DNA from: Erysipelotrichaceae bacterium
GTDB lineage: Bacteria; Bacillota_I; Bacilli_A; Erysipelotrichales; Erysipelotrichaceae
Reading direction: 5' to 3'
Length of the DNA: 64,000 nucleotides
Assembly (NCBI GenBank): GCA_017404205.1
Contig: JAFRCV010000008.1
Coordinates: forward strand, 1 to 64,000
The notes below the pieces were generated by a model. The model was not told the DNA's origin and ran no database searches. It saw only the letters and a list, made by a program, of their open reading frames with translations. The position numbers and the translations under genes were made by a program. Shown here one piece after another: positions 5,671 to 42,800 of this stretch. Each line of letters starts with the position of its first letter. Position 1 is the first letter of the stretch.

Positions 5671-5673
5671 GTT

Positions 5674-6908: not shown

Positions 6909-6971
6909 TCCTCCTTTATTCCATCATAAGAAAAAGTAGACTTCAGATTAAGTCTTTATGACTTTTTCTTG

Positions 6972-16769: not shown

Positions 16770-16812
16770 AATGACACTTTTACTCACTTATATGATACAT
16801 TTTTATATTTAA

Positions 16813-17774: not shown

Positions 17775-17784
17775 GGAGTTTAAC

Positions 17785-19455: not shown

Positions 19456-19457
19456 AC

Positions 19458-24200: not shown

Positions 24201-24626
24201 GAAGATAATAAAGGTATCTATGTAGCATATGAAGTAATACATAAATATAATCCAAAAGTTTACATGTGGAATTTAGACAAAGATGAAAGAGGCGTTTGGT
24301 ATTACAACACCAATGTTGAATTCTTCATCAATAATGAACATTTTGCTGCTACAACGTTTGGCGATAGTGGCTTTATGCTCAAATCAATGAAAACTAATGA
24401 AGACATGATTAATGGTACATATACTACTATTTTTGAAGGTTTTATTCCTAAAGATTGTTTAATGGAAAAACCTTACAATATCGGTTTTGCTTTTAAGACC
24501 TGTGATAAAGATTATGAGCATCCTGATGAAATTAAAGATAATGATATGAAATTTAATAATGATCCATGGTGGTTCTTTACTGGCCATTTTCCTACTGATG
24601 TATCAAAGAGATGGGCAATAAATTAG
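21204..24626 (+). CDS. Surface GH43 lipoprotein with discoidin-, CBM9- and LamG-like modules
   Basis: 1140 aa anchored by an N-terminal lipobox (FILSAC, Cys near residue 21). Residues about 30-410 form a GH43 propeller: GADPSVIYINEG, NYWAPEVIYDA, VNEAPFMVYRDGKYYLLYSA, GTGHCSVV. About 415-565 is a discoidin-like domain (ISLKFDDYKNVYGITIYNS). About 575-760 is a CBM9/DOMON-like domain. About 775-960 is one copy of the LamG-like module (PKFG at 830-833) that recurs six times in the next protein. About 965-1140 is a second CBM9-like domain starting LVIDADLSDWDLD. It should cut and hold side-chain arabinan/xylan at the cell surface, feeding the adjacent importer. It overlaps the permease stop by 4 bases. 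Confidence 0.87.
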   Translation: MMKRFLSLTLIFTFVFILSACQNNSKGINIAEYNHDAFYRNDLLTVGADPSVIYINEGKDAGYYYMYATSNEMYGTGFLAYKSNDLINWECQGVALRSKGEYIENENKTIISFGFSNYWAPEVIYDANSKLYYMFYSANRYDTAFNNGLYFFGDIAISEDPAGPFVQYNEYYNQNLVLVDKTNNVYAYEPVFDFSKMNNNHPLYEINSDGYMKIIDLSPFIDPKTGNKYVYFCHDLSSALAISKSQIYVMALDDNWMPKYDEVYALTMPNRYTLDGDDNIELNEGKVNEAPFMVYRDGKYYLLYSANSYMQKTYSVRVAISDSPVGPFRKLTKEEGGYLLYADSYWTWSSGTGHCSVVNKDGQDYIVYHEHQDRTLGNSSRSIAVDEIVWTKNNDGLNVMVANGPSYAVLPKTSSKYMNIAKDAIIEANKALNSTSLLNDGIVKYHDDLDFINECRFEDGSGTISLKFDDYKNVYGITIYNSCNYDYMFSKIENITLKTDKGDKKLGPLTYNWDDYYTEEGFVIPGGNFSIDFKQTKVNEIIIELKDIDFNYAISEIAVLGDNPNYIEVEDTQISNDFSIDVPNDNTVVFDGTVNKEEYNGQQIKFSDTNGVVLTMYSKMTDNGLFVGFKSNDKNVYYNEDDSIFNNTSVELQLALGGTSKINANVLQLRYGVNGNIESWIGLQSAKTYGYMLAYVETASKVKIYGDLNSSNCDGYDIEAYIPYSSLGLDHKPDSLICAPSFNTRKDKDASGRTTWTILVGSSLSDPTSWYRIDSDGQTVMTDGFSVSNNKIIQRGGSNQFYYFGDELLDAYYLNIDVKIGDILNNDLYPKFGVVNKSYNSLLGYYFDIAGRHYNNAGRIYASATEFMGTNWAWEDGSSKTFGLVNNISNLSINRSINIELIKYYDQYAMLVDGKYVLGDVGIKGLEDGSIPGLFFFNNEADIIVNVYENEADVVKNYLETYIPNLVIDADLSDWDLDKTLINTEKDNSNGNQMTTYAFEDNKGIYVAYEVIHKYNPKVYMWNLDKDERGVWYYNTNVEFFINNEHFAATTFGDSGFMLKSMKTNEDMINGTYTTIFEGFIPKDCLMEKPYNIGFAFKTCDKDYEHPDEIKDNDMKFNNDPWWFFTGHFPTDVSKRWAIN

Positions 24627-24638: not shown

Positions 24639-27600
24639 ATGGAAAACGAGAATAATTCTAAGAAAAAAAGAGGCTTAATTATTTTGATTGTTATGTTGCT
24701 GTTGTTAGCATCAGCTTTTGCTGTTACAAAACTTCTTTCAAAGAAACAATTTGAAATTACAGTTTTAGAAAGCGCACATGGAAAAGTTGAGGTTGATAAA
24801 TTAAAAGCTTATGAAGGCGATACAGTAACAATTAAAGCTATCCCTGATGAAGGATATGAAGTTTCAAGCGTCCTTGTTAATGGAAAAGAAAGCGAAATGA
24901 TTTTTACAATGCCTTATGAAAATGTAACAATCTTAGTTAAGTTTTCTTTAAAAGACAGTACCCCAGAAGAAATAATTGGTGATACTTTCGGTGGCGTAGA
25001 AGGCTATATGTCATCTGAAGGTGTTGATTTAAGCCATGATAATGGTAATAACCCCTATGTTACTATAATCGGTGGTGGTGAACAATTTGCTTATTTAAAT
25101 GATGTATTTGATACAAAATTCTATTTTGAAACATCTATAAATGTAAAAGAAATATATAACAATGATAAGTATCCAAAATTTGGAATCATTATTGATGATG
25201 AACTTGGATCAACGCTTTTCTATGTTGATATGAATACTAAAATGACATCTAACAAAGTTGGTGTCGTTCATCAACAAGAAGGAAAAGATTATGATTGGAA
25301 AAATGCATTTGAAAAAGAAGTGTCTGGTATGAAATTCTCTGATAGTGATTCAGTTAAATTAGGAATTGCTAGAAACAATAATAATTATTATTTCTATGTT
25401 AATGACAAACTTGTTTTAATGGATAAAGATTTAAATACAAAAAATGCAGCTTGTGGTGTATTTACTTTTAATACTGCATTAAAACTAGATAGATATTCAA
25501 AAGCTGTTGGCGATGATGCTAATAGCAAGATTAATAAAGCTGTAAATGATGGCTTATATTTAAGAGGCGACTTCTTTGGCTGGTATAAGAATTATCGTTC
25601 AAGTAAGGAAGTTAAGATGATATATGATCATGGACAAAATAGAAAATTAGTAGTTGATGGTAATTCGCCTCAATATGCATATGTTAATGATATCTTTACT
25701 GATAAATTCTCATTTACAACAACGATTGATGTTAATGATATCTTAGCTAATGATAAGGCACCTAAATTTGGTCTAATGATCAATAATGACAAACAAATGG
25801 TTAAATTCTATGTTGATATGAATGATAAAAAAGAGGCATCACAAATTGGTGTTGTATGGCAAAAAAACGGTGCCAATGATGATTGGGCACATGCACTAAC
25901 TGAAAGAATAGCAAATCATAATTTTACTAATAAAAAACAAATAGAACTAAAAGTAGTAAGAGATAAAGATCAATTCTATTTCTTTGTTGATGGAGTTTTA
26001 TTTATTGCTGATAAAGGCTTAACAAATAATAATGCTGCAGTTGGTGTTTTCTCATTTAATACAAATATGACTCTTAGCAATTATTCAATTAAAGTAGGTG
26101 ATAACGCTAATGAAGATATAGCTAATGCAAAAGATCAAACTAAGCGTTTAAAAGGTGATTTCTTTGGAAAAGCAAATATTTATAAAACAACTATTTCGGG
26201 AGTTGATTTATATAACGATCATGGAACAAATCCATATACTACTTTCTTTGGGACTGCTCCACAATATGCATATGTAAATGATTTATATACAAATAAATTT
26301 GTTTTTGAAAGTGATATTGAAGTTAAAAAAGTTTTAAATAATGATGCTGCACCTAAATTTGGCATCATGATTAATGGAAATAGTGAGATGCTTAAATTCT
26401 TTGTTGATTTAAAAACTGACTTAACTGCAAATGAAGTGGGCGTTGTTAGACAAAAGACAAATCAAGATGATGAATGGAATAGTGTTCTTACAAATATTGT
26501 TAAATTGAGTTTCAATGAAAATGACACAATTAAATTAAAAATTATTAGAAATAATTTAGATTATTATTTCTTTGTAAATGATAGACTAGTTATTTTTGAA
26601 AAGAATGCTATCACAAATGAAAAGAGTGTTGTTGGGCTGTTCTCATTTAATACAGAATTTAAAGCTTTGAATTATTCTATTAAAAAAGGAAATGAAGCAA
26701 ATAATGAGATAAATGCAGCTAAAACAATAGCTAATAATATTGGCGATTTTACAATTGGCACAAATAATTTTGTTGATAATGGCGATGGTTCATACACATT
26801 TGAATCAAATGATCAAAGCTTACACAAAGTAGATGATATTAGATATCAATATAAAACATTAAATGATAAATATAAATTGGTTCATTTAAAATTGGAATTA
26901 GTTGCTGCGGATGATTGGGGACAAGCTAGAGTCCTTGTTTCTAAAGATCCACAAAATGAAATGTTTGTTGCTTTAGAAAAGAAAAATAATGGCAAATACC
27001 AAGTATTTACGATGTCGAAGAATAATCAAAATGATTTTGATAATTGGGAATTAATTATTCCTGAACTAGATGAGAATTATATTGATTTAGATATTGTTAC
27101 AATTGGAAATGAAATATTCTTCTTAAATGATAATCAAATAATTTATAAGAAAACTAATTTAGATGCAAATAATGCAATTATTAAGGTTACAGGATACAAC
27201 AATGCGAGAGTTATTGTATCTGACATTAGTGGAAAGATATTTAATGACGAATTAGAAGCAAGAGAATACATCAATGATTTATCTGTTATTGTAAATTATT
27301 ATGATGGAAATATTTTAATTGATAATGAAACATTAAATATTAATGAAAAGATTACTAAAACAGATCCAAGTAAAGAAGGATATAAATTTGTATCTTGGTA
27401 TAAAGATGAAAGCCTTACTGTTGCATTTGATAAAAATGAAGCAGTAATAAGCGAACTAAATCTATATGCTAAATGGAATAAACTAGAGATTGTTGATGGT
27501 AATGAAATTGAAATTGAAATCAATAATTTATTAGATAATGAAATAAAACTTGATATAGATAAAGATACTATTTTATATGAAACAGTAGATAAGGCATTAT

Positions 27601-30600
27601 TACAATTAATTCAAGGTCATCTTGTTGATAATATAGATATTAATGCTGAAACTGCAAATCAAATAAAAGAGGCATTAGATAATGAACAAGCTTTATTTGT
27701 CCAAATTGCTGTTGATGCTCATAAAGCCGAGCTTAATGATGATGAAAATAATATTATTCTGTTATATGATGAAAATTCAATTGTAATTGCTTCTTATGAA
27801 ATTAATATTTATATGACAATTAAAGCCGATAATAACACACTTGTTGATAAAGCTAAGATTAATGAATTAGATGGCGAAATTAGTATTAATTTAAATTATC
27901 CACAAGCTTATGATAGAAATATTTTAACTGCTCTTGATATACATAATAATCAAGTTAAAGAATTAAGTATTATATCTAAGAACACTGATAATCATTCTAT
28001 ACTTGTCAAATCAAAAGAATTTTCTAAATATGTTATTACTACAGGCGTTAGCAACTTTAGTTTGACAACTAATTATTTTGAGAAAACAGGTTCAACCTAT
28101 GCTTTAACAACAAATTCAAAAGAAGAGACAACTTTAGATGAAATTAAATATTTTGATGAAGTAGTAAGAGGAAAATATTATCGCATAAATGGTTCTATAA
28201 GTTTAGATACGGAAGAAAATTGGAATCAAGCAAGAATAATTATTTCTAAAGATACAAATAATGAATATGTAATTGCTTTAGAAAAAGTTGCTGATAATGC
28301 TTATCAAATCTTTACTATGTCAAAAGATAATGAAACACTTTGGAATGATTGGCGTTTAATATCTCATTATGAAGTAAACGGCAATCGTCATAGTATTGAT
28401 TTTGAAGTAGTCGTTATTGAAGATAAGGTCTATTTCTTAATTGATAATGAGATAGCTTATGTAACAAAGAATCGCGTTGATTTATCCGAAAGTACTCCAA
28501 AGATTGGCTCTTATGGAACATGTACTACTACTTTAACTAATTTAGATGGACAAATCTTTAACAATAAAGATGAAGCCGAATCATATATTAATTCTATAAA
28601 TGTTAAACCTTATGAAAGCCGTTTTGAAAATAGAATTAATTCTTTATATCAAGAATATATAGTTGATCATAATTGTGCTAATAATGGTGGAACGTTACTA
28701 TTTGGTGATTCAAATATTGATTTCTGGGATAATTGGCAAGTTCAAGCTGGTTTAACTGACTATATAAATGGATATAACGTAGGTATCGGCGGTTCAACTA
28801 CTACAGATTGGTTATATGCATATGAAAAATTAATTAAGCCTTTTAATGCAGATAGAATAGTCTTCATGCTTGGATTTAACGATGTATTTGTATGGGGTGA
28901 AGATGGCGATGATACAGTAAATCGTTTATATGAATTGATGAATAAGATTCATACAGATAATCCAGACGCAAAGATTTATTGTATCTATCAAACACCATGT
29001 CCAGCAGGCCATAATGGCATTGAATATACAAATCAAAAATATGAACAATTAGTAACTTTAACTGAAGAAATGTGCGATTCTTTAGATTATGTTACAGGAA
29101 TAAGTGTCTTTGATTTATTAAAAGGAAAAACAAATTTATTCCGTTTAGATAATGTTCATTTAAATGATGAAGGTTATCTAGTATTTTCAGATTATTTATA
29201 TGATTTGATATTTAAGGGTGAAACATTTGGTGTAAGTAAAGCCAATAATAATTCTTATCGTTATAAAACAACTAATGGTGTAGAGATTTCTAATGATAAT
29301 GGATCAAATCCTAATATTGAATTTTTTGGCGGCTCTCCTCAATATGCATTTGTAAATGATACATATACTGATAAATTATATTTTGAAGCTCAATTTAATG
29401 TATCAGAAGTATTAAATAATGATGCATGGCCTAAGTTTGGTTTACTATTAGATGGACAAAGTGAAATGCTAAAACTATTTGTTGATATGACACCTAGCTT
29501 GACAGCGAATAATGTTGGCCTTGTTCATCAATTAACTGGCAAGGGCGATGATTGGGCTAACGCAATAAATAAAGCTGTTAATAATATGAAATTTACTGGT
29601 GATGATAATATTAAACTTTCTATTATTAAAAATGGCAAAGATGTTTATGCTTATGTAAATGATGAATTAGTAATTTTTGAAGAAAATTGTTCATTAAATA
29701 ATTTAGAAACTGTTGGTGCTTTCTCGTTTAATACAAGAGTTACATTATCTAATTATTTATTGTTCAAAGACGATGCTGCTTTAACTTATATTCAAAAAGC
29801 TATTGATGATCATGAATTGTTGATGAATAGAAATGTTACTTTTAAAGATGGTGAAAATGTATTGAATTCATTGAGTATTAAAGTTGGTAACAAGATTAAT
29901 TATCAACCTGAAAAAGATGGCTATACATTTGTTGGCTGGTATAAAGATTCACAATTTACTGATGCATGGGATATAAACAATGATGTAGTAACAGACAATA
30001 TCACTTTATATGCTAAATTTGTAATAAAGAATTATATAGTTAATTATTATTATGATAATCAATTAATCGATAGTGAATCTGTAGAACATGGCTCATCTAT
30101 AACTAAGTTATCTTATGTCAAAGAAGGTTATAGTTTTGATGCTTGGTATAAAGAGGCTACATTTGTTAATAAGTGGAGTAACGATGATCCAATAGATAAA
30201 AACTTAGATTTATATGCTAAGATGAACATCAATTCATACAGTGTCACTTATATGGATGGAAATGATTTATTAAAAGAAGAATCATTAGATTATGGTTCTA
30301 AGATTTCCTATTTGCCTAATAAGGATGGTGCTGTTTTCTCTACTTGGTACAAAGATAAAGATTTAACACAAATTTGGTCTTTAGATGATGATAAAGTTGT
30401 TGGAAATATAACTCTTTATGCTAAATTTGTTATTAATCAATATCAGGTTAAATATTATTATGACGGAAATTTAATTGATAACGAAACTGTTGATTATGAT
30501 TCATTAATCACAAAGTCATCTTATTCAAAAGAAGGATATAGCTTTGTATCGTGGTATAAAGAAGCTTCATTAATTAATAAATGGGACAATACAGAAGATA

Positions 30601-33600
30601 GAATCACAGCAGATACAAGTTTATATGCGAAGATGGATATCAATAAATATACAGTTTCTTATTACAATGGAACAACATTACTATTTAGCGAAGAAGTTGA
30701 ATACGATAATTTAATTAGTCATGAAGATCCTTCATCCCTAGGCTATAATTTTGTGTCATGGTATAAGGACAGCGCTTTAACTATTCCTTTTGATAAAACA
30801 AATGAAACTATCAAAAACGACACAAATCTATATGCGAAATTTACTAACGAAGGTAAATTCTTTGGAAATGTTGGCGAAAATATAGCAAGTGGAGCAAACT
30901 TTATTCATGATGATAATAGTGATAATGCTTATGTAGAGATGATAGGCAATAATAATGAAGCTTATTATCCTGTTGCTTATGTTAAAGACACACTTGCAAA
31001 TAAGTATATCTTTGAAATAGAGATTGAAGCTTTAGATATCTACAATAATGATAATTATCCTAAATTTGGAGTTTATTTTGGTGGATTAAAAAATTCTAAT
31101 TATCGTTTCTATGTTGATGTTAATAAGGAAATTAGATCAAATATTGTTGGCTTATATAAAGAATCAACTGATGATTATAACTTTGCTAAAGCAAATGTTT
31201 TAATGTCATTTAAGGATGGCGATACTGTCAAATTAAAAGCAATAAGAAACATCAATGATTTATATATTTATGTTAATGATTCATTAGTTATTTATCAAAA
31301 TGATCTTTTAGGAAATGAAGATAATTATTTAGGAGTTTATTCATTTAATATGGGATTAAAACTAAGCAATTATTCATTTAAATCTAGTGGCATTGATGAA
31401 GATATTTCAAAAGCAATAAACGATGCTGAAACACTTGAATCACTAAGAACTATTAGCCAAGTAGTAAGTGGAAAGACGATTTCATATGATGTTGAACATT
31501 TAAGCGATAGAATAATTGTCAATGCAAGAGCAAACGATTTATCAAACTTCAATCTTGATTTATACTTTACAGCAAACGGAAGAGAAGAACTTCAAGAAAA
31601 TAATGGCTATATGGCAGTTATTTATAGAGATGGCAATATTAATAAAACTTCATATAGCGAAAACAATAAAAACTTTACAAATGCTTCTAATATCGATATA
31701 AGCGTTGAAAGAAGCCAAAATGTTATTTCGGTTTCTATACCTTATTCAAGTCTTGGCATAAGTGAAAAAGAGGCATTTGATAAATTCGCATTTATGCCTG
31801 CAATTTATAACAATTCTGATGCAACATATCATTTATTTACAGAATCTAATCCATGGGTATCAAAGGCTTATTCTGAAACTTGGTACCAATGTAATTTAAA
31901 TGGAGCTTTAGCAATTGACCCAATATTTGAGCAAAGAGCTAATGGTAGCTTAACTGATTGGACAAAACCAGACTTTATGCAAGCTACTGTTTTCTATGAG
32001 GCTGCAATTAAAGAACAGACATGGCAACAATGTGTAGTTGCGATTGTATGTAATGAAAAACATGGAGCTAATATGTTTGATTTACATATCCAGGAATTAA
32101 ATGAAGAAGATAGAAGTGAAGAAAATCTAAGAAAGATTATTCATTCAACATATAAACCAGTACTTGCAATTTTCTATAATTCAAACGATTTACAATATCA
32201 AGGAGAAATATTAAAGACTGCATGTAAAGCTGGTGCATCAGCAATAGATCTTCCTGGCTATTATTACAGTGCAGAAGCAAGAACGCAAGGATATGATGAT
32301 AGCGATAGACAACAATGGATAGATGAAGGCTATAGCATGAGTTTTGCGAGTGCTGCTCCTTCTGAATCAACTATCTTACATGAAAATGTTAAAAAGCAAA
32401 ATGATTATATCGCTGAAATACACGCTTTAGGATCAAAAGTATTATTATCAGAACATGTTTATACTGTATTTGATAAACAACAAGCAATTGATTATGTAAC
32501 TTTCATGCTTAAAACAAAAGATATTGATGTATGTAAACTGGTAGGAAGAGGTTCAAGTAAGGAAGATGCATATAATTGCGTAGAGGCAACAAAATATTTA
32601 ACTACTCTTGTCGATAATAATGAATTCCCTGGAAAACGTTTCTCATATCATTTAACACCTTTAGCAGGTGGTGAAAGTGGTTGGTTAACTAGAATTATTA
32701 ATCCCGCTTTCTTTAAATCATATGTAGCATTCTGTTATGGAGATTTAGGAAGAGGCAATCTTGACTATAACCAAATTGATATTGATATGGGTATTGAGAC
32801 ACATGGATATGCTCAAACATTCTTACAAGCATATTTACAAAACACATCTCATTCATTAACTGATTTAAGTATTGAAGATTGTATCAGTATATTGGATTCA
32901 TATGGCGAAAACCATCATCAATATTTACGCTATCGTAATTATTATCTAAATAGTAATTCATTATCTGGAAGAGCTTATGCTAAGACAGGGCAACATAACG
33001 ATTATTGGAGATTAAATGGATCTAGCTTCGTATTTAATGCTAAATCGCCATCTACAACAAACGGTTATCCTGTAAGAGGCTTTGCGTATGATTTTGATAA
33101 TCGTGTTAAGCTGGGCGAAGATATAACTATTTTTGCAGATATTACGTCTGATTTAGGAACAAGCGCTTATACAAGTTCAACAAGAAACACAAGAACCGGT
33201 CTATATCTTGGAAACAACGAATCGCTATTAGCTTATGTATATAACACGAACACAAGGAAACTTGAGCTTGTATATAATAATCGTGAATTTGTTGTTGGTG
33301 ACGCTGATGCTTTAAGCACAATAAGCGGTATTGACATTAATAACGAAACTTATAATGCCGATATTATTAATGGCGATACTATTTCAATGTCACTTTCATT
33401 ACAAGGACGTACCTTAACATTAGGATTTAAGGATTCTACTTCTGAGGCATTAACACAAGTTGCTTGTATAGAATTAAGCGATGAATTATATGCTTTAATA
33501 GGTGAATCTGATGGCTTTATTAAAGGTGGCGTTATAGCTGAAACATATGTAAGAAGTGGGGCTATTAGCGAAGACAAAAATATCTATTTCTCTAATGTTT

Positions 33601-36398
33601 CTTATAACGATGTTGAATATTCATCTTTCTTTGGTGATGCTGGAAATAGCTATTCTTTAGGTGCTGACTTTAGTCATGATGATGGCAGCAATGAAAGATA
33701 TGTAACTATTGCTGGTGATGGCACAAATCAAACATATGTAAAGAGTGGACTTTCTAATAAATTTGTCTTTGAAACAGAAATAGAAGCTACATCACTAAAT
33801 AATGGGGAACTATATCCTAAATTTGGTATTTGTTTAGATGAATTTAATTCTAGAATGAAATTCTATGTTGATATGAAAACTGACATGACAGGTAATACTG
33901 TCGCATTATGGAAAGACAACACATATAATGTCAGCGCTAAAAATGTCACAATGAATTTTGTGGATGGAAATAAAGTTAAATTAAAAATTATTAGAGATGT
34001 TAATGATTATTATTGTTATGTAAATGATCAATTAGTTATTTATGAATATGATAATCTAGTTTCAGAAAATAGTAGCGTAGGTATCTTTACATATAACACA
34101 GGTTTAACATTAACTAATTATTCATATCTTGAAAATGGTGCTGCTAATAACGCAATAAATCAAGCTAAAGAAGATGTATATAATATTGAAGCTAATTATG
34201 AAGAGATAAATGCTGAAAATATTATCTCTAATGCATACAAAGCTTACAATTATTTCTTGAATAATAGTGATAATGGCAATGCTTATCAAGAAGTATACAG
34301 AACAAGTACAGCTTCTAATATCTATGCAGGTGAATGGATTGATGCAACTTTCCAAATGGGTGCACTAGACTTATATGATTATGATAAAGAAAAATACAAC
34401 GATATATATACATATGTTAAAGGCCTAGCAGATGCTCGTAATGGTTTATTAAATGGTGGAACCAATACAGGCTATCTTGATGCTCTTGCATATGCACAGG
34501 TATTTGCGAAATTAAATAGCTATGATTCTTATGATTTAGAAAATGTAAAAGCTCAATTAAACTTTGCAATGAACAAGATTGATAATCAATATTATGATTA
34601 TTCATGGATTGATGAAGATTATATGGTTGGTTGGGTTAATACTTACTTATCATTTATTCTAAATGATTCTTCATATACTGATGCCGATTATAGATCTTAT
34701 ATGAAATATCGTGCTGAATATTTTGATGAAAGCACAGGCTTATGGTTTAGAGATGCTAATTATATTTATGGTTTAGGCGAAAAGGGTACAACAAATGATG
34801 GCAAGAAGGTTCTTTGGTCAAGAGGTAATGCTTGGGTATATGTTTCTCTTGCTAGACATTTAAGCTTCATGGAAGAAAATGGACTAACCGATAGTGCAAT
34901 CTATAGCCAATACAAGAACGACTTTATTACAATGTCAAATTCTCTTGTAAATATTCAAAGAAAAGATGGCTTCTGGAATGTTAATTTATCTGATTCTAAA
35001 TTAAATACAGGTAAAGAAACAACTGGTACTTCAGGATTCTTATATGGCTTATCTAAAGGTATTAAACTTGGCTATTTAGATAATGAAAAATATATGAATG
35101 CAGCAATTAATGCTTATCTTGGCTTAAGTAATAAAGCATTAACAAGTCAAGGCAAATTAGTATATTGCCAACCAATAGGCTGGGATCCATTTACATATAG
35201 CTCTGCTGTTTGTCAAAATAACACAACAGCCTTTGGCGTAGGCTTATATATTTCAGGATGTAAAGCATTTGCTGAGGTTTATGAAGAACCATATTCATTA
35301 CAAGGAAACGGTAGTGAAGCTAATCCATATCTAATAACAAGTTTAGATGACTATAACTATATTGCAGAAAAAATTACTGCTGGTGAAAATTATCAAGATA
35401 AATATATTAAATTAACTTCTGATTTAGGAAACATTGATAATCCTATAACTAAATCATTAGGTGATTATGATAATTTCTTTGCGGGTAATTTCGATGGTGA
35501 TAATCACACACTTTACATAAATTTAACTAACGATAGGGGCTTATTTAACAAAATAGACAATGGCAGTGTAATAAGAAACGTCGTTGTTGATGGAAGTGTT
35601 AATTTCTCTGGAAACGAGAATTATGTTGGCGGCATTGCAGCTGTAGCATATTCTGGAAGCGTTATAGATAATTGTGAAAATAAAGCATCTATTAATGGCA
35701 ATGTTGCTGGTGGAATAGTTGGCTTTTCATATGGAGCAACTATAACAAATTGTACAAATTATGGAGACGTAACAGGCAATGTCGCATACAGTACTGCAGT
35801 TAATTCTGGTAATGGTGCAGGTGGCATTGTTGGTACACTTGGAAATACTAATCCTTCTATAGTCTCAAATTGTATAAATCTAGGAAATGTTACTTCAAAC
35901 AATCAAGCAGGTGGCATTGTTGGCAAAGCTAGAACTAATGCTGAAACAAGAATTACTAATTGTATAAACAATGGAACAATCACTGTTAGTGATGACAGTG
36001 GAAATCACGGCATCGTTGGTGGCATTGTTGGTATGGCTGGATGCAAGGTTGATAATTGTATAAATAATGGCGAAATAAATGGAACCTCACAAGTTGGCGG
36101 TATTGCTGGAGCTTTAATTAGTGAAGGCAAGACCGATGCTTGTCACAACTATGGCCAAGTAAATGCTTCAAAGAATTATGTTGGTGGTATTGTTGGTTGG
36201 GCATATCAAGCAGTAACAGCAAATAGTATTACAAATTCTGTTCAACATGGAAATAGTGTTACTAAAACAAATACCACTTATCCTACTGGACTTGTAAGAA
36301 AACCTAACTATATTGGTTGGATAACTGGCCAAGAGTCTACAAGTGGAGCAACAGCAGTCAGTGGTGAAAATGCTTGTGCTCATGAAAGTGGGGAATAG
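24639..36398 (+). CDS. Giant signal-anchored multi-enzyme polysaccharide-degrading protein
   Basis: 3919 aa. Residues 11-31 form a single N-terminal TM segment after a basic start, best read as a signal anchor. In order: InlB-like domain (37-106); LamG-like modules 1-3 (about 113-690, PKFG at 179, 375, 572); a beta domain (701-880); an InlB repeat (885-948); a second beta-domain copy (about 1145-1325); an SGNH esterase with GDSN 1356-1359 and catalytic D1504-x-x-H1507; LamG 4 (PKFG 1598); five InlB repeats (about 1732-2070); LamG 5 (2141); a CBM9-like domain (about 2265-2420); a type I dehydroquinase-like barrel (about 2428-2710, H2606, K2633); LamG 6 (3060); a GH105/GH88-like domain (about 3175-3550, WIDED from 3323, WSRGN from 3393); and a GLUG block (3555-3919). 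Esterase and unsaturated-uronyl hydrolase point to acetylated pectin. No LPXTG or dockerin is seen. Confidence 0.88.
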   Translation: MENENNSKKKRGLIILIVMLLLLASAFAVTKLLSKKQFEITVLESAHGKVEVDKLKAYEGDTVTIKAIPDEGYEVSSVLVNGKESEMIFTMPYENVTILVKFSLKDSTPEEIIGDTFGGVEGYMSSEGVDLSHDNGNNPYVTIIGGGEQFAYLNDVFDTKFYFETSINVKEIYNNDKYPKFGIIIDDELGSTLFYVDMNTKMTSNKVGVVHQQEGKDYDWKNAFEKEVSGMKFSDSDSVKLGIARNNNNYYFYVNDKLVLMDKDLNTKNAACGVFTFNTALKLDRYSKAVGDDANSKINKAVNDGLYLRGDFFGWYKNYRSSKEVKMIYDHGQNRKLVVDGNSPQYAYVNDIFTDKFSFTTTIDVNDILANDKAPKFGLMINNDKQMVKFYVDMNDKKEASQIGVVWQKNGANDDWAHALTERIANHNFTNKKQIELKVVRDKDQFYFFVDGVLFIADKGLTNNNAAVGVFSFNTNMTLSNYSIKVGDNANEDIANAKDQTKRLKGDFFGKANIYKTTISGVDLYNDHGTNPYTTFFGTAPQYAYVNDLYTNKFVFESDIEVKKVLNNDAAPKFGIMINGNSEMLKFFVDLKTDLTANEVGVVRQKTNQDDEWNSVLTNIVKLSFNENDTIKLKIIRNNLDYYFFVNDRLVIFEKNAITNEKSVVGLFSFNTEFKALNYSIKKGNEANNEINAAKTIANNIGDFTIGTNNFVDNGDGSYTFESNDQSLHKVDDIRYQYKTLNDKYKLVHLKLELVAADDWGQARVLVSKDPQNEMFVALEKKNNGKYQVFTMSKNNQNDFDNWELIIPELDENYIDLDIVTIGNEIFFLNDNQIIYKKTNLDANNAIIKVTGYNNARVIVSDISGKIFNDELEAREYINDLSVIVNYYDGNILIDNETLNINEKITKTDPSKEGYKFVSWYKDESLTVAFDKNEAVISELNLYAKWNKLEIVDGNEIEIEINNLLDNEIKLDIDKDTILYETVDKALLQLIQGHLVDNIDINAETANQIKEALDNEQALFVQIAVDAHKAELNDDENNIILLYDENSIVIASYEINIYMTIKADNNTLVDKAKINELDGEISINLNYPQAYDRNILTALDIHNNQVKELSIISKNTDNHSILVKSKEFSKYVITTGVSNFSLTTNYFEKTGSTYALTTNSKEETTLDEIKYFDEVVRGKYYRINGSISLDTEENWNQARIIISKDTNNEYVIALEKVADNAYQIFTMSKDNETLWNDWRLISHYEVNGNRHSIDFEVVVIEDKVYFLIDNEIAYVTKNRVDLSESTPKIGSYGTCTTTLTNLDGQIFNNKDEAESYINSINVKPYESRFENRINSLYQEYIVDHNCANNGGTLLFGDSNIDFWDNWQVQAGLTDYINGYNVGIGGSTTTDWLYAYEKLIKPFNADRIVFMLGFNDVFVWGEDGDDTVNRLYELMNKIHTDNPDAKIYCIYQTPCPAGHNGIEYTNQKYEQLVTLTEEMCDSLDYVTGISVFDLLKGKTNLFRLDNVHLNDEGYLVFSDYLYDLIFKGETFGVSKANNNSYRYKTTNGVEISNDNGSNPNIEFFGGSPQYAFVNDTYTDKLYFEAQFNVSEVLNNDAWPKFGLLLDGQSEMLKLFVDMTPSLTANNVGLVHQLTGKGDDWANAINKAVNNMKFTGDDNIKLSIIKNGKDVYAYVNDELVIFEENCSLNNLETVGAFSFNTRVTLSNYLLFKDDAALTYIQKAIDDHELLMNRNVTFKDGENVLNSLSIKVGNKINYQPEKDGYTFVGWYKDSQFTDAWDINNDVVTDNITLYAKFVIKNYIVNYYYDNQLIDSESVEHGSSITKLSYVKEGYSFDAWYKEATFVNKWSNDDPIDKNLDLYAKMNINSYSVTYMDGNDLLKEESLDYGSKISYLPNKDGAVFSTWYKDKDLTQIWSLDDDKVVGNITLYAKFVINQYQVKYYYDGNLIDNETVDYDSLITKSSYSKEGYSFVSWYKEASLINKWDNTEDRITADTSLYAKMDINKYTVSYYNGTTLLFSEEVEYDNLISHEDPSSLGYNFVSWYKDSALTIPFDKTNETIKNDTNLYAKFTNEGKFFGNVGENIASGANFIHDDNSDNAYVEMIGNNNEAYYPVAYVKDTLANKYIFEIEIEALDIYNNDNYPKFGVYFGGLKNSNYRFYVDVNKEIRSNIVGLYKESTDDYNFAKANVLMSFKDGDTVKLKAIRNINDLYIYVNDSLVIYQNDLLGNEDNYLGVYSFNMGLKLSNYSFKSSGIDEDISKAINDAETLESLRTISQVVSGKTISYDVEHLSDRIIVNARANDLSNFNLDLYFTANGREELQENNGYMAVIYRDGNINKTSYSENNKNFTNASNIDISVERSQNVISVSIPYSSLGISEKEAFDKFAFMPAIYNNSDATYHLFTESNPWVSKAYSETWYQCNLNGALAIDPIFEQRANGSLTDWTKPDFMQATVFYEAAIKEQTWQQCVVAIVCNEKHGANMFDLHIQELNEEDRSEENLRKIIHSTYKPVLAIFYNSNDLQYQGEILKTACKAGASAIDLPGYYYSAEARTQGYDDSDRQQWIDEGYSMSFASAAPSESTILHENVKKQNDYIAEIHALGSKVLLSEHVYTVFDKQQAIDYVTFMLKTKDIDVCKLVGRGSSKEDAYNCVEATKYLTTLVDNNEFPGKRFSYHLTPLAGGESGWLTRIINPAFFKSYVAFCYGDLGRGNLDYNQIDIDMGIETHGYAQTFLQAYLQNTSHSLTDLSIEDCISILDSYGENHHQYLRYRNYYLNSNSLSGRAYAKTGQHNDYWRLNGSSFVFNAKSPSTTNGYPVRGFAYDFDNRVKLGEDITIFADITSDLGTSAYTSSTRNTRTGLYLGNNESLLAYVYNTNTRKLELVYNNREFVVGDADALSTISGIDINNETYNADIINGDTISMSLSLQGRTLTLGFKDSTSEALTQVACIELSDELYALIGESDGFIKGGVIAETYVRSGAISEDKNIYFSNVSYNDVEYSSFFGDAGNSYSLGADFSHDDGSNERYVTIAGDGTNQTYVKSGLSNKFVFETEIEATSLNNGELYPKFGICLDEFNSRMKFYVDMKTDMTGNTVALWKDNTYNVSAKNVTMNFVDGNKVKLKIIRDVNDYYCYVNDQLVIYEYDNLVSENSSVGIFTYNTGLTLTNYSYLENGAANNAINQAKEDVYNIEANYEEINAENIISNAYKAYNYFLNNSDNGNAYQEVYRTSTASNIYAGEWIDATFQMGALDLYDYDKEKYNDIYTYVKGLADARNGLLNGGTNTGYLDALAYAQVFAKLNSYDSYDLENVKAQLNFAMNKIDNQYYDYSWIDEDYMVGWVNTYLSFILNDSSYTDADYRSYMKYRAEYFDESTGLWFRDANYIYGLGEKGTTNDGKKVLWSRGNAWVYVSLARHLSFMEENGLTDSAIYSQYKNDFITMSNSLVNIQRKDGFWNVNLSDSKLNTGKETTGTSGFLYGLSKGIKLGYLDNEKYMNAAINAYLGLSNKALTSQGKLVYCQPIGWDPFTYSSAVCQNNTTAFGVGLYISGCKAFAEVYEEPYSLQGNGSEANPYLITSLDDYNYIAEKITAGENYQDKYIKLTSDLGNIDNPITKSLGDYDNFFAGNFDGDNHTLYINLTNDRGLFNKIDNGSVIRNVVVDGSVNFSGNENYVGGIAAVAYSGSVIDNCENKASINGNVAGGIVGFSYGATITNCTNYGDVTGNVAYSTAVNSGNGAGGIVGTLGNTNPSIVSNCINLGNVTSNNQAGGIVGKARTNAETRITNCINNGTITVSDDSGNHGIVGGIVGMAGCKVDNCINNGEINGTSQVGGIAGALISEGKTDACHNYGQVNASKNYVGGIVGWAYQAVTANSITNSVQHGNSVTKTNTTYPTGLVRKPNYIGWITGQESTSGATAVSGENACAHESGE
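24976..26700 (+). repeat. Three tandem LamG-like modules
   Basis: Three protein modules spaced 588 and 591 bases apart (196 and 197 codons), each with the order DHGxNPYxT, YAYVNDxxTxKF, NDxxPKFG, KFYVD or KFFVD, and VGVFSFNT. Three diverged copies recur singly in the same gene (PKFG codons at 29430, 31059, 33816) and one in the lipoprotein gene upstream (23691). Each is probably a carbohydrate-binding sandwich. Confidence 0.8.
29830..30850 (+). repeat. Five tandem InlB-like (Listeria-Bacteroides) repeats
   Basis: Five units of about 65 codons with the family signature GYxFxxWYKDxxxxxxW followed by TLYAKF or LYAKM. A single further copy lies at about 27290-27480 (WYK at 920). Such repeats are rigid surface spacers. 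Confidence 0.85.
35300..36395 (+). repeat. GLUG repeat block ending the giant protein
   Basis: About 365 codons of GLUG-type repeats (VGGIVG, NCxNxGxVT pattern, predicted right-handed beta-helix), opened by GNGSEANPYLITSLDDYNYI and closed by WITGQ..SGENACA. It is highly similar to the three blocks at 39990-43100, both in protein and over shorter DNA stretches such as around 35907 and 40602. Confidence 0.8.
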
Positions 36399-36401: not shown

Positions 36402-38000
36402 ATGAAGAAAAGAAAGATAATTAAAACTTCTATTATTTCCTTATTGCTGATATCAACCATTTTAATTGGATTTAATGGCAATGTAATTGTTAACGCTTTA
36501 AATGGAGTAATACAAAAAATAATAAAGCCTATTACAACAAGTTCAAACATTAATGACTCTTTTATAGAAAACGATTTAATTAATGATAATGATTTTGAGG
36601 AAATTCAAGAAATGAATAGAGGCAACGGTAGTCAAGAAGATCCATTTATGATTTATACATCTGATGATTTGATTAATTTAAGTAAATTAATATTTGAAGA
36701 TGAAAAATCAGTTAAGGATATTTATTTTAAACAAGCTAATGATATTTCTTTAAAAGGTATTGAATTTGAACCAATAGGTACACTAGGATATCCATTTGAA
36801 GGAATATATGATGGAAATGGTTTTACTATTAATGATTTAAACATTAATACAACTAATTCATTTCAAGGAATATTTGGCTTTGTAACGGGAACTGTTAAGA
36901 ATTTAACAGTTAAAGGAGATATTAAAGTTACAAAAAGAGCGGATCACAGTTATTCATATTCATATGTTGGTGGTATTGTAGGTGCCATTAATAATGGAGC
37001 AAGTATTGAAAATTGTATTAATTATGTAAATGTCAAAGGTGATATTTATACAGGTGGAGTAGTTGGCGTAATTTTAGCTAATGATAATATGAAAGCTAAA
37101 GGCGCAATCAATACTATTAAAAATTGTATAAATTATGGAAATATAATTACACCAAATGACTACAACAATTATGTTGGTGGAATTGTATCTTATAGTGCTG
37201 GTGATAGCCAAATAGAAAACTGTATAAACTATGGTGAAATTACGGGAAATTATTGTTCTGGCGGAATTATTGGTGCCAATTATATAGCTCCTATCACTAA
37301 CTGCATCAATGTAGGAAATATTGTTGAAAATAAACAATTTGCTGGAGGAATAGCTGGCTATTCTAGTGGCTTAATTGATGCTTGTGTTAATTCAGGTGAA
37401 ATAACTGGCTTAAATGATACAGGTGGTATTGTTGGCAAAAGCATCAGTACAATTATGAATTGTATTAATGAAGGTCAAGTTACAGGCTTAATGCGTGTTG
37501 GTGGAGTTGCTGGCTATATTGAATCTAGCGAATTTATTAATAATGGAAGTATTGATATTAAGAAATATACAGCTATTAATTCATTTGACAACATATCTAT
37601 TAATTTAGCTACTTCAAAAGCAACTATTATCAATTGCAATAATATAGGCGAGATTATATCTACTAATTCAGATAGTAGAGTAGGTGGAATTGTTGGTGCC
37701 TTTACTTCTTATGGCAACTCAACAAGTTCACCAGGGCCAATAATGATAGGCTGCTATAACAATGGAAAAGTATCTGGCTTAAGTAATGTTGGTGGAATTA
37801 TTGGTTGGGCATACGATAAATGCTTAAATAATAACGCTTCTTATTCATTTCAATTAGGCAATGAAGTATATGTTAATGGTGATGCTTTATCGACAAACAA
37901 TTTAAATGGAACAGGTTCTAGTGGCTATTGGATTGGTCGTTTTTCAAAAAATGCAGCAATTGTTAAATCAGGCGATAGTGCCTGTGGACATTTTGAATAG
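36402..38000 (+). CDS. Secreted GLUG-repeat protein
   Basis: 532 aa. Residues 1-35 are a signal peptide or anchor (KIIKTSIISLLLISTILIGF). Then GNGSQEDPFMIYTSDDLINL opens a GLUG-repeat beta-helix of at least eight coils with VGGIVG, NCINYGNI and SGGIIG motifs. It ends with the cap seen in the neighbouring proteins: WIGRFSKNAAIVKSGDSACG. No enzyme active site is recognisable. It starts three bases after the giant gene and ends 11 bases before the next, so it is clearly in the operon. Likely a surface adhesin or glycan-binding scaffold (inference). Confidence 0.82.
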   Translation: MKKRKIIKTSIISLLLISTILIGFNGNVIVNALNGVIQKIIKPITTSSNINDSFIENDLINDNDFEEIQEMNRGNGSQEDPFMIYTSDDLINLSKLIFEDEKSVKDIYFKQANDISLKGIEFEPIGTLGYPFEGIYDGNGFTINDLNINTTNSFQGIFGFVTGTVKNLTVKGDIKVTKRADHSYSYSYVGGIVGAINNGASIENCINYVNVKGDIYTGGVVGVILANDNMKAKGAINTIKNCINYGNIITPNDYNNYVGGIVSYSAGDSQIENCINYGEITGNYCSGGIIGANYIAPITNCINVGNIVENKQFAGGIAGYSSGLIDACVNSGEITGLNDTGGIVGKSISTIMNCINEGQVTGLMRVGGVAGYIESSEFINNGSIDIKKYTAINSFDNISINLATSKATIINCNNIGEIISTNSDSRVGGIVGAFTSYGNSTSSPGPIMIGCYNNGKVSGLSNVGGIIGWAYDKCLNNNASYSFQLGNEVYVNGDALSTNNLNGTGSSGYWIGRFSKNAAIVKSGDSACGHFE

Positions 38001-38011
38001 GGAGGTTTTAT

Positions 38012-39808
38012 ATGAAAAAGATTTTAATATCAGTCTTAATTATCTTATTATTCCTTCCTACTTATGTTTTAGAAGCGAAGGAAACTTTTATGGATCATTT
38101 CATTCCTAAATTTACTCCAAATAATAAAGAATACGATGTTATTGATGAAATAACTTTTGATGAAGATGACGTTTTTTCTAATACAGTTAAATGGGTATAT
38201 AACGATGACTGGAGCAATGACACAAGAGCTTTAGCATACGGTTATGAAAATAATCAATACTTTATACAAGGAACTGGCGCAAATTATTCATTATTATGGA
38301 AAGGCTATTTGACATTTAATGAAACAATAGATGAAAGTGATGGCTTTATTATCTATTTTGATAGTAGAGATATAAAAACAAGCACAAATAATGTTGATGT
38401 AGGATTTAACTTCTATATGTCTAGAATTAATGAACCAGGATTTTTCGCTAGCGGTATATATGATGGAACAAATGCTGATAGTCAAACAATTGCTTATTAT
38501 AATTTAGTTAATAATTGCTATCGCTTTAATGAAAATAATAATTCTTGGGAAGAAGTTACAGTTAATAATAATTATTTAAATCTTCCTAAAAATGATGCTT
38601 CATATATTTATATACCTTTATCTAGTTTAGGAAGATTTGGAGATATAAATAATCTTTTAAGTAACGAAAACTCTTTCTACTTTTTAAGTGGTTTAAAAAT
38701 ATCTACAAAGAATCTTGGCGATATTGATTCGCAAGGAAGACTATATATTGATGATTTAACATTGATTAAAGAAAAGAATTCTATTTGTGAACATGATTAT
38801 CATCAAAGTGTAGTAGAAGCAAATAGATTGCATTCTGGTTATACCATCAACACATGCACAAAGTGTGGACATGTTCAAATTATTTCAAGGGAAAGCATTG
38901 ATTTAAGTGAACCTGTTGATGATTATTACACATATACTTTCCACTATGGATTAAATCAAGAATTAAGCACTTCAATTAAAGTTAAAAATGGTGAAACTTG
39001 TTTAAATGCTCCTTGGATGGAAGAAATAATTTCTAATAATGATAAATATACATTTATGGGTTGGAGCAATAATTCTAAACATTTAGATCCTTTAAACCCA
39101 AAAACAACTGTAGCGAACAGTAATAAAGATTTTTATGCATTTTATGTTTTAAGTTCTTTTGAGTATAGTATGTCTTATCCAAAATATACAGCTATGGCAT
39201 CGGTTTTAAGCTTTAGTGGTGGTATTTATAATACATTAAAGAATAAATGCATATTCATGGGAAATTCAAACAATTCTTTATATCACAATTTAGAAGAATT
39301 GATGTCTTTAGAAATACCTACTATAAATAATTCTTTAAATGGTGGATATACATATTCTTATTTACAATTTTATGAAGAATTAATCGTAGCTTTTAAACCT
39401 AAAATTGCGGTTATCTGTTTAACTTCAAATGACTTTGCGTATTTCAATATGTCTGTTAATGACATTATGGAGTTAACTGCTAAATTATGTGACAACATTC
39501 ATGATGCTTTGCCAGATACGCTTATATGCATATTGCATGCTAATGTATTACCGGGTAGAGTTGCTCAAACTAGAGCTATTGAGAAATTGAATAATAGAGC
39601 TAAAAAATATTGTGATAAATATGATTATTTGGAGTTTATAGATGAATATGATGTTGTAAAAGGAATCCTAGATAAATATGATCTCAATGATAATACATAT
39701 TGGGAAACATGGACTCATATGCAACAATCTTCTTTAACTACTTGGTATAAGGAGATTAGAAAAGATTTGGTTGAAATAAAAAGAAAACACAACATTGTGT
39801 TTAACTAG
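38012..39808 (+). CDS. Secreted SGNH-hydrolase-like protein with variant active site
   Basis: 598 aa with a signal peptide (residues 1-23, cleavage near VLEA). Residues about 45-250 are a beta-sandwich resembling a carbohydrate-binding module. About 255-290 has a zinc-ribbon-like cluster (CEHDYH, then CTKCGH). About 305-370 is an InlB-like domain (YTFMGWSNNS). From about 405 an SGNH fold follows: nucleophile Ser419 in GNSN, TSND for block III, and H569 in WETWTH where families have DxxH. The missing Asp and GNS instead of GDS make activity uncertain. GGAGG precedes the ATG, 11 bases after the previous stop. It would be a second deacetylase, or a binding-only relative, beside the SGNH domain of the giant protein. 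Confidence 0.75.
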   Translation: MKKILISVLIILLFLPTYVLEAKETFMDHFIPKFTPNNKEYDVIDEITFDEDDVFSNTVKWVYNDDWSNDTRALAYGYENNQYFIQGTGANYSLLWKGYLTFNETIDESDGFIIYFDSRDIKTSTNNVDVGFNFYMSRINEPGFFASGIYDGTNADSQTIAYYNLVNNCYRFNENNNSWEEVTVNNNYLNLPKNDASYIYIPLSSLGRFGDINNLLSNENSFYFLSGLKISTKNLGDIDSQGRLYIDDLTLIKEKNSICEHDYHQSVVEANRLHSGYTINTCTKCGHVQIISRESIDLSEPVDDYYTYTFHYGLNQELSTSIKVKNGETCLNAPWMEEIISNNDKYTFMGWSNNSKHLDPLNPKTTVANSNKDFYAFYVLSSFEYSMSYPKYTAMASVLSFSGGIYNTLKNKCIFMGNSNNSLYHNLEELMSLEIPTINNSLNGGYTYSYLQFYEELIVAFKPKIAVICLTSNDFAYFNMSVNDIMELTAKLCDNIHDALPDTLICILHANVLPGRVAQTRAIEKLNNRAKKYCDKYDYLEFIDEYDVVKGILDKYDLNDNTYWETWTHMQQSSLTTWYKEIRKDLVEIKRKHNIVFN

Positions 39809-39865
39809 AAAGGAGAAAAGCAAAAATATTGATTATTTATTAAGTATGCAAAGGAGAAAAGAACG

Positions 39866-42800
39866 ATGAATTTAAAAAACTTTACAAAATGTGGACTTGT
39901 ATTTATGTTAGTTGTATCTTTAATCACTTGTCAATCAATTAATAGCATATATGCATTAGCAAGTGATAGTTCAATTAATGTAATTAACAAGCTTGAAGGT
40001 GATGGGTTAGAAGATAGCCCTTATCTAATTACTTCACTAGAAGACTATAATGAACTTGCAGATGCTGTAATAGCTGGAGATAGTTTTGCAGGTAAAACTA
40101 TTAAATTGACTGCTGATATTGGTAGCCAAGAAAATCCTGTTACTAAAGCTTTAGGTACATATACAAATGCCTTTGGTGGTAATTTAGATGGTGATGGTCA
40201 TACAATTTATTTAAACTTAACAGATGATCGTGGATTAATTAATAAGTTAGCACAAAACGCCACAATCAAAAATGTAATTGTTGATGGTAGTGTTACATTT
40301 AGTGGAAGTGATAAATATGTTGGTGGCATCGCTGGTATAGCAAATCCAAATTGTATTATAGAAAATTGTATTAATAAAGCTACAATCAATAGTACTGGTG
40401 TTTCTGGTGGTATAGTTGGTTATATTTATAATTCAACATTAACTAATAATGTAAACTATGGAAATGTTACTGGTGTAGTTGCATATTCAACAGTAACTAC
40501 TGCTGGTAATGGTGTAGGTGGTATTGTTGGAACAATTGATGCTGCAAATCCATCTAGCATTATTAATTGCTCAAATTTCGGTACTGTTACAAGTAATAAC
40601 CAAGCTGGTGGTATTGTCGGTAAAGCAAGAACTAATGCAGAAACAACAATTTCAAATTGTATAAATAACGGTACTATTACGGTAACTGATAATACTAGTA
40701 ATAATGGTGTTGTTGGTGGTATTGTTGGTATGGCTGGATGCTATATTAATAACTGTCTTAATAAAGGTAATGTCAACGGCACATCACAAGTTGGTGGTAT
40801 TGTTGGTGCTTTGATTAGTGGCGCTAGAGTTGATGCTTGTCGAAATGCTGGTCAAGTTAGCGGTTCTTTAAACTATGTAGGTGGTATTGTAGGTTGGGCG
40901 TATAAAGCAGTAACTGCAAACAGTATTACTAATTGTATTCAACAAAGAGATGGTGTTATTAAAGCTGATACAATTCCAACAACTTTAGTTGGAACAACTT
41001 CTGAAAGTTTGGGTTGGATAACGGGCGTAAATTCTACAGCAAGTGCTACAACTGTAAGTGGAGACAGTGCTTGTGCTAAAGTAGATTTACTTGGTAGTGG
41101 AAGCGAAAACGATCCATATTTAATTCAAGATGAAATTGATTATGATTTAGTTGCTGACAATGTAATTAGTGGAAGCAACAATTATAACGATAAATATCTT
41201 AAAATTACTGCTGATTTAGGTAGCGCAAATTCCCCAATCACTAAAGCCCTAGGAACATATAATAACGCTTTCTCAGGAAACTTAGATGGTGGTAATCATA
41301 CAGTTTATATAAATCTAACAAGTGATAGAGGCTTAATGAATAAAGCTAATAATAATGTTACAATTAAAAATCTAGTTATTGATGGTTCAGTAAACTTTAG
41401 TGGTAGCAATAGTTTTGTTGGCGGATTAGCTGGACTTGTTTATTCTGGAAGTGTTATAGAAAACATTACAAACAAAGCTACAATAAACGGTAATTATGCA
41501 GGTGGTGTTATTGGATATGTATATGGCTCAACTATTAGAAATTGTTCAAATTATGGAACGGTTAATGGAGTAGCCGCTTATTCTACAGCAACAAATTCTG
41601 GTTATGGTGTTGGTGGTATTATTGGAACGTTAGACCATAATAGCCCTTCAGTTGTAGATTCATGTGTAAATTATGGAGATGTTACATCAAATAACCAGGC
41701 CGGTGGTATTGTTGGTAAGGCTAGAGCTAATGCTGAATCATTAATTTCTAATTGTGAAAATAAGGGAACAATAACAGTAACTGATGATACAGAAAATAAT
41801 GGTGTTGCAGGCGGTATTGCTGGTATGTCTGCGATTGCTATTGATTCTTCAATCAACAATGGAACAATTAATGGTACATCACAAGTTGGCGGCATTGTTG
41901 GAGCTTTCATTTATGGTGGCACAACTGTAGATGCTTGTCATAATTTCGGTAGTGTAAATGCTTCAAAATCAATTGTTGGTGGAATTGTTGGTTATTCATA
42001 TAATGCTGTAGATGATGGAAGCATTATTAACTGCATACAACACTTTGATAATGTTAAAAAAGCAAGTGTAAGCCCTACTGACTTAGTTTATCCATCAAGT
42101 TCTAATTACTCTGGTTGGATTCTAGGAAGAGGAACAAAAGCAGATGTTGTTATAAGTGGCGATGATGCATGTACAAAAGTTGATTTATATGGATATGGTA
42201 CAGAAACTAATCCATTTACAATCTCTAACTTAACTGATTGGAATAATTTCGCTAATAACGTAACAAATGATGGCTATGACTTTGCTGGAACATATGTTTC
42301 ATTAAATGAAAATATAGGGGACAGTACAAACCCAGTAACAACAATAGTTGGAAATAATGATAATCGTTTTGCAGGAACTTTTGATGGCTTAAATAATATA
42401 ATTTATTTAAATATTAATTTGAACAGTGGTGTTGATACTGGTGCTTTCTCAGGCATTGCTGGTATCGTCAAAAACTTAGTAATTGACGGCTCAATTGTTA
42501 ATCAAGCTAATAACTCAAGAGTTGGCGGTGTTGCTGGAAGAATTATAAGTGGCCACATTGAAAATTGTGTTAATAAAGCAAATGTATTAGGCAATTACTA
42601 TGTAGGTGGTATTGTTGGTTTATCTGATGTAGAACCATCTTATATATTAAATTGTTCTAATTATGGCGATATTTCAGGTGCTAAGTTTGTTGGTGGTATC
42701 ACTGGCTACTATCAAGCTATTGGTGACCAAATCAATACTTATACAGTTAAAGAATTTATAAATAGTGATGAATATAATGAAGTTTTATATGATTGCACAG

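Follow-up and report, generated by a model that had tools for sequence, protein, structure and literature searches.

A predicted class I dehydroquinase barrel within a glycan-degrading giant protein of an Erysipelotrichaceae bacterium

Background

The type I 3-dehydroquinate dehydratase AroD (EC 4.2.1.10; DHQ1 of S. Typhi, PDB 1qfe and 4uio) is a (beta/alpha)8 barrel with a catalytic His143 on beta5 and Lys170 on beta6. Crystal structures show K170 as the Schiff-base residue and H143 as the acid/base; the substrate carboxylate is held by R213 and Q236, whereas E46, R48, R82 and, via a water, D114 contact the C4 and C5 hydroxyls (PMC9902378). Another type of beta-elimination, on oxidised sugars, is carried out by the Mn-dependent 3-keto-glycoside beta-eliminases (OGE/CGE and LgdB1); OGE is a TIM barrel and the partners of these eliminases are dehydrogenases (PMC7676230, PMC10628242). 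The third group of interest here is formed by the GH105 unsaturated uronyl hydrolases (5noa, 4ce7, YteR). We know of no dehydroquinase (DHQase) domain in the characterised GH105 enzymes, and in a search of the open-access literature we found no paper describing a class I DHQase that is secreted or linked to sugars.

Here we analyse a stretch of 64,000 nucleotides of an Erysipelotrichaceae genome (hereafter the window), in which a DHQase-like domain and a GH105-like module are encoded in the same giant gene.

Results and discussion

The giant protein and its location

The giant gene and the modules needed for the argument are the following:

24639..36398, + strand: giant multidomain glycan-degrading protein, 3,919 aa, predicted extracytoplasmic (single open frame and Pfam domains)
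24672..24737, + strand: hydrophobic N-terminal segment after KKKR, signal anchor or signal peptide (sequence and hydropathy)
28701..29177, + strand: GDSL esterase-like domain, residues 1355-1513 (Pfam Lipase_GDSL_2, 58 bits)
30846..31439, + strand: repeat module upstream of the DHQase domain, sharing 44% identity with the module on its other side (own-genome matches)
31422..31913, + strand: beta-rich module just before the barrel (mostly strands, pLDDT about 40-80)
31956..32810, + strand: predicted class I dehydroquinase-fold domain, residues about 2440-2724, core match 2440-2717 (profiles, model and alignment)
34326..35252, + strand: GH88/GH105 unsaturated-uronyl hydrolase-like domain, residues 3230-3538 (Pfam Glyco_hydro_88 and PDB matches)

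The Pfam domains found across the protein are Flg_new_2, GDSL, Flg_new repeats, DHquinase_I, GH88/105 and Glug. From the N- to the C-terminus they run from an InlB-type repeat (residues 39-104) through the GDSL esterase and Listeria-Bacteroides repeats (best stretch 1733-1793) to the class I dehydroquinase match (2584-2702), the GH88/105 domain and finally GLUG. An artefactual reading frame was considered and rejected, as the frame is open over 3,919 codons and copies of the protein's own repeat, of around 190 residues and 44% identical to each other, flank the DHQase domain on both sides; at least four further copies occur in the protein. These flanking repeats indicate that the domain is an integral module of the giant.

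Regarding the location, the single membrane segment comprises residues 12-30, directly after KKKR. The hydropathy maximum is at residue 12, and beyond residue 40 no other stretch scored exceeds 1.6. By the positive-inside rule the basic side of a membrane segment stays inside, so the remainder of the protein, including the DHQase-like domain, is predicted to be outside the cell. The proposal that this is an extracytoplasmic glycan-degrading polypeptide is thus borne out by this single N-terminal segment and by the GH88/105 module.

The original prediction had located the barrel between a CBM9-like and a GH105-like domain, and this was right only in part. The GH88/105 module is certain (125 bits against a cut-off of 26.6, with solved relatives), but around 500 residues of other modules separate it from the DHQase domain, so the two are not adjacent. 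The module that precedes the barrel is mostly beta in a low-confidence model and gave no match in a sequence search of the PDB, while the fold-match list of a longer model containing barrel and module was filled by matches to the barrel; the CBM9-like assignment was therefore not recovered.

The DHQase domain also carries 6 of the 29 cysteines of the giant (residues 2465-2699), a density several-fold higher than elsewhere in the protein. Such a density would be expected if the module had been acquired recently from a protein of the cytoplasm, and it hints at this origin.

Evidence for the dehydroquinase fold

Positions 31920..32770 of the + strand translate to residues 2428-2711, and the motifs and residue numbers originally reported for the domain are exact. 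The isolated segment reached 26.2 bits with Pfam PF01487 (DHquinase_I, gathering cut-off 22.2) and the six-frame scan 23.2 bits, whereas within the whole giant of 3,919 aa the score was 19.1 bits, slightly below the cut-off. Single-sequence searches with the domain found no relative in the PDB or among the genome contigs; both kinds of relatives were recovered by profile searches only. Searches of phages and of viral contigs gave no relatives.

An HMM of the other subfamily members (see below) gave 120 bits for the window domain, against at most 5.1 for 2,000 shuffled sequences, and an HMM made of AroDs only gave 20.8 bits against at most 6.1. When the profile of the 13 subfamily members was compared with that of 16 AroDs, the E-value was 5.7e-23.

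The AlphaFold2 model, made from a four-sequence alignment, has eight strands and a barrel mostly with pLDDT 70-96, the insertion between beta4 and alpha4 and the C-terminus being poorly predicted. The top 50 Foldseek matches of the predicted barrel were all DHQases. With VIA-align, 225 residues were aligned to the S. Typhi DHQase (4uio) with Z 21.9 and rmsd 2.6, whereas the best non-DHQase had Z 15.2, and a second model of a longer stretch was concordant (Z 19.5). In the model, H2606 is at the end of beta5 and K2633 within beta6. Profiles and model thus agree in predicting a class I dehydroquinase (beta/alpha)8 barrel for residues about 2440-2724.

Active-site residues

The alignment with E. 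coli AroD assigns three residues of the window domain to the chemistry and to the binding of the acid:

32454..32456, + strand: H2606, equivalent to AroD His143, catalytic general acid/base
32535..32537, + strand: K2633, equivalent to AroD Lys170, Schiff-base lysine
32691..32693, + strand: R2685, equivalent to AroD Arg213, salt bridge to the substrate carboxylate (role from PMC9902378)

The catalytic His and the Schiff-base Lys are therefore kept, as had been claimed, and so is D114, as D2537. The counterpart of Q236 is either Q2712 or Q2730 depending on the alignment. The changed residues are E46 (D2481), R48 (H2483), D50 (Q2485), R82 (Y2513), M203 (L2675) and M205 (G2677). Judged by the alignment, the domain retains the chemistry residues and the acid clamp, and the part that reads the polyol end of the substrate is replaced. 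The retained Arg213-type carboxylate binding would fit an acidic sugar.

A divergent subfamily

Profile searches recovered relatives of full length on megaplasmids of haloarchaea (Halobellus limi, WP_240728570, a species with a pair of paralogues; Natrinema, WP_254525716; Halomarina), in a Paenibacillaceae MAG, in a Planctomycetota MAG and in Mesorhizobium (WP_140758421). Five more relatives are in genomes of the taxonomic family of the window, two of these in its genus. They are standalone proteins of around 260-300 aa, with 20-30% identity to the window domain over most of its length. The single-sequence genome matches, with E-values of about 1e-3, were too weak to be used alone, although the profile confirmed two of them (G030 and G419) as genuine members. 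Most of the profile matches with E-values of 1e-7 to 1e-13 were housekeeping AroDs.

In the tree, the subfamily (13 rows, including the window domain) and the AroDs (16 rows) form separate clades, each with support 100/100. In the subfamily E46, R48 and R82 are replaced, while the Lys/His pair and the carboxylate-binding Arg are kept. The combination of an invariant Arg and a replaced polyol reader predicts an acid with a different polyol end as the substrate. NCBI labels several of the relatives as type I 3-dehydroquinate dehydratase and, given the loss of E46, R48 and R82, this label is doubtful for most of them.

The simplest alternative is that the window domain is an ordinary 3-dehydroquinate dehydratase, working in shikimate synthesis or in the salvage of plant quinate. 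The fold, the equivalents of K170, H143 and R213, the names of the Pfam and TIGR models and the annotation of the relatives would all agree with it. Nevertheless, E46, R48, D50 and R82 are all replaced, the score with TIGR01093 (aroD) is 24.5 bits when the equivalog cut-off is 139.3, and the domain falls outside the AroD clade. Furthermore, no chorismate synthase was found in the host genome (1.62 Mb, 99.7% complete; the control was positive in 14 of 14 genomes), nor any second PF01487 besides the window domain, which leaves no classical shikimate role for it, as originally proposed. Unlike AroD, the domain is predicted to be secreted and fused to glycan modules, in a host without a shikimate pathway. 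We therefore regard an ordinary AroD function as very improbable, and the sequence data place the domain in a divergent DHQase-like subfamily and not in AroD. We see in it a variant of a familiar fold at a location new for it, and one member of a family that is misannotated.

The standalone catabolic paralogues belong to the same subfamily as the window domain and share its invariants, but they are apparently cytosolic and mostly encoded in sugar-catabolism operons, whereas the window copy is a module of an extracytoplasmic giant. The search for other proteins with this fusion, suggested in the original prediction, returned nothing further: the fused form was seen only in this genome. The search covered 272 genomes of the family and 395 of the class, for which the subfamily profile was used, as well as 392 of the phylum, for which an earlier profile was used, these sets being partly overlapping.

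Genomic context of the standalone relatives

An NAD(P) dehydrogenase was found within a few genes of the DHQase-like gene at 10 of the 11 loci, several of which share one operon type; the exception was the Natrinema locus, with none among the near genes. The other loci can be described as follows:

i) Haloarchaea. In Halobellus limi (L012) two divergent paralogues (10273..11136 and 12013..12903), both annotated as type I 3-dehydroquinate dehydratase, lie on either side of an SDR; the plasmid that carries them also has DgoD, MaoC and GH88 genes. DgoD and GH88 are in the neighbourhood, the GH88 gene around 10 kb away. In Halomarina an SDR-like ORF is two genes from the DHQase-like gene.

ii) Planctomycetota (L016, 5822..11699). 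The order is LacI, two Gfo/Idh/MocA genes, the DHQase-like gene and a Zn-ADH, with a DHDPS-family aldolase gene nearby. From its gene content, this cluster appears to encode a route of sugar oxidation and elimination that has not been described before.

iii) Paenibacillaceae and Mesorhizobium. The former has the order AraC, Zn-ADH, epimerase and DHQase-like gene; in the latter, where the subfamily gene is FJ970_RS33225, a D-lactate dehydrogenase and SDRs are near it.

iv) PTS operons. In four genomes (G030, G026, G419 and G740) an AraC gene, a PTS IIBC similar to the sucrose and MurNAc types and an SDR accompany the DHQase-like gene, the SDR being immediately before it; a further protein at these loci is, from our reading of the sequence, presumably DUF871/MupG-like. 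The standalone genes that immediately follow an SDR in PTS operons, in the taxonomic family of the window, are at 5627..6451 (L048), 6631..7419 on the - strand (L049), 6183..6977 on the - strand (L050) and 7094..7879 (L067). In G419 and G026 an N-acetylmuramic acid 6-phosphate etherase exceeded its equivalog cut-off; the loci at which this etherase is confirmed are L049 and L050. This context suggests that the DHQase-like proteins of the PTS operons might perform a novel step in the catabolism of muramic acid or a similar ether sugar.

v) G640, where the SDR comes directly after the DHQase-like gene.

The theme common to these loci is acidic or oxidisable sugars together with ketone formation, and the dehydrogenase neighbours would suit a scheme in which a ketone is made and a group is then eliminated. 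The window copy departs from this norm, as it is predicted to be extracytoplasmic and its operon has no dehydrogenase.

Two further alternatives have to be weighed against this context. One is a Schiff-base retro-aldolase, in which K2633 would form an imine with a keto-uronate and a C-C bond would be cleaved instead of water being lost. A lysine within a barrel supports both reactions and the L016 relative has the DHDPS-family gene near it; however, the His on beta5 and Lys on beta6 are the DHQase arrangement, the nearest solved folds are all DHQases, and we know of no aldolase from this DHQase-like subfamily. Accordingly, a retro-aldolase seems improbable to us. The other is an imine counterpart of the Mn-dependent 3-keto-glycoside beta-eliminases, which would split oxidised sugars at their glycosidic bonds. 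Genes for Gfo/Idh/MocA and SDR dehydrogenases lie next to those of standalone relatives, as in the described oxidation-elimination pathways (PMC7676230, PMC10628242). Nevertheless, the known eliminases are Mn-binding TIM barrels with His/Asp ligands and no Schiff-base lysine, they act through metal enolate chemistry and belong to families unrelated to the window domain, and no extracellular oxidase domain was found in the window operon, so we give this reading an equally low chance. The resemblance to those enzymes would lie in beta-elimination on oxidised sugars, if the function proposed below holds.

Proposed function

Our preferred reading, held tentatively and with somewhat less than even confidence, is that the window domain would be an extracytoplasmic, cofactor-free Schiff-base beta-eliminase (a dehydratase or, in reverse, a hydratase) with a carboxylated keto-sugar as its substrate, which might be a uronate from the fused GH105 module. 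K2633 would react with the carboxylated sugar, at its ketone or at the aldehyde of its open-chain form, to give an imine, H2606 would shuttle the proton, R2685 would grip the carboxylate and the beta-oxygen would depart as the leaving group. The fold, the place in the subfamily, the conserved residues, the location outside the cell and the lack of a shikimate pathway come directly from the data above, while we infer the catalytic activity, the elimination rather than aldol chemistry, and the substrate. Class I DHQases need no cofactor, which makes this chemistry feasible outside the cell.

Within the giant, the most natural source of the substrate would be the uronate series handled by the GH105 module. 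Its product, 4-deoxy-hex-4-enopyranuronate, would on chemical reasoning be a ring-oxygen analogue of shikimate and, therefore, a barrel evolved around 3-dehydroquinate and 3-dehydroshikimate would be a plausible starting point. Besides the divergence of the domain, described below, two observations count against this proposal. Where dehydroquinate has its carbonyl, the GH105 product carries an OH instead of a ketone, and there is no NAD(P)-dependent, ketone-making partner outside the cell, so the link of the relatives with dehydrogenases cannot apply in the same way to the window copy. Moreover, as the fusion occurs in one searched genome, its co-occurrence with GH105 counts as a single event.

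The window domain could also be an inactive relic or a binding module, that is, the giant would have taken up a gene of cytoplasmic sugar catabolism, whose product would today act as a spacer or bind carboxylated sugars. It is the most divergent member of the subfamily and has the longest branch of the tree (end branch 2.41). Of the 16 columns that do not vary among the other 12 members it has lost 4. It has also gained an insertion of 10 residues, is missing the beta3-alpha3 loop, which holds a subfamily-invariant Asp, and has a Lys in place of an invariant Gly at 2693. The fusion in one genome only and the cysteine content, with its hint of a recent cytoplasmic origin, also point to a relic. 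However, the 12 columns that are kept include the equivalents of H143, K170, R213 and D114, and E2576 and Q2587 are kept as well, although the identity to any subfamily member is at most 30%; neutral decay at such a low identity would not favour these residues. The conservation pattern thus argues that the catalytic residues outlast the rest of the domain during divergence, and we consider a relic rather unlikely, though worth serious weight.

Were the beta-eliminase proposal right and the domain active, the subfamily would add a new type of reaction to carbohydrate catabolism, in which sugar acids undergo imine-based elimination, and the window copy would be its first extracellular example. 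The subfamily is labelled as dehydroquinate dehydratase, yet it lacks three of the substrate-reading residues and occurs in organisms or operons unrelated to aromatic synthesis; it is linked to sugar dehydrogenases, to MurNAc-type PTS operons and, here, to a polysaccharide-degrading giant. In its broadest version, the proposal would make the window domain the first eliminase of sugar acids to work outside the cell through a Lys-imine, with neither metal nor cofactor, a dehydroquinase fold having been recruited into a machinery for polysaccharide degradation. The domain would then represent a wider, misannotated catabolic family of bacteria and haloarchaea that would eliminate water or ether and glycosidic groups from the keto-forms of acidic sugars such as uronates and muramic acid. 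We consider this reading as a whole rather unlikely.

The operon and its candidate glycans

The giant gene belongs to an operon with the following features:

15885..16787, - strand: AraC-type regulator, divergent from the operon (Pfam)
16872..17774, + strand: cytoplasmic GH43 (Pfam, 181 bits)
17692..21207, + strand: sugar ABC importer, lipoprotein solute-binding protein and two permeases (Pfam/NCBIfam)
21204..24626, + strand: GH43 lipoprotein of 1,140 aa, immediately upstream of the giant (Pfam, 120.6 bits, N-terminus)
36402..44047, + strand: three more secreted proteins (GLUG, GDSL, GLUG), downstream of the giant

The ORF of the solute-binding protein (17692..19455) overlaps the end of the GH43 gene. 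Its lipoprotein signal, MKKLLLTILCLSMTLCLSAC, shows that the true start is around 30 codons downstream.

The GH105 module of the giant is the same kind of enzyme module as the characterised GH105 hydrolases. It has the W-x-D catalytic motif, with D3325 in WIDEDYM aligned to WADGLYM of 5noa, and its best solved matches were 5noa, 4q88 and the rhamnoglycuronyl hydrolase 4ce7, well above the rhamnogalacturonidase YteR. The host genome has a cluster with GH43, UxuA, an SDR, UxaC, a KDPG-type aldolase and L-rhamnose isomerase (RhaA). KduI (PF04962) is absent from the host genome and, since other isomerases exist, this is neutral regarding the catabolism of unsaturated uronates. The target glycan possibly combines uronate, rhamnose and arabinose, for which both pectin RG-I and arabinogalactan are candidates; the GH105 relatives and the UxaC-UxuA-RhaA cluster make arabinogalactan or another glucuronan as likely as pectin.

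Some other genes were noticed. Upstream of the operon, positions 62..6486 of the window carry a type I restriction R subunit, a 646-aa protein with no Pfam match and an IS integrase. Two convergent TMEM164-family genes (PF14808; 14157..14984 and 15104..15871) are neighbours, with an ABC transporter on one side of the pair and the AraC regulator on the other. Finally, an oxamate carbamoyltransferase (AllG/AllH) cluster with a CoA-ligase, an acetate-kinase-family protein and a PfkB (L082, G000:C9:21000-37000) adjoins a KDPG-aldolase-like gene.
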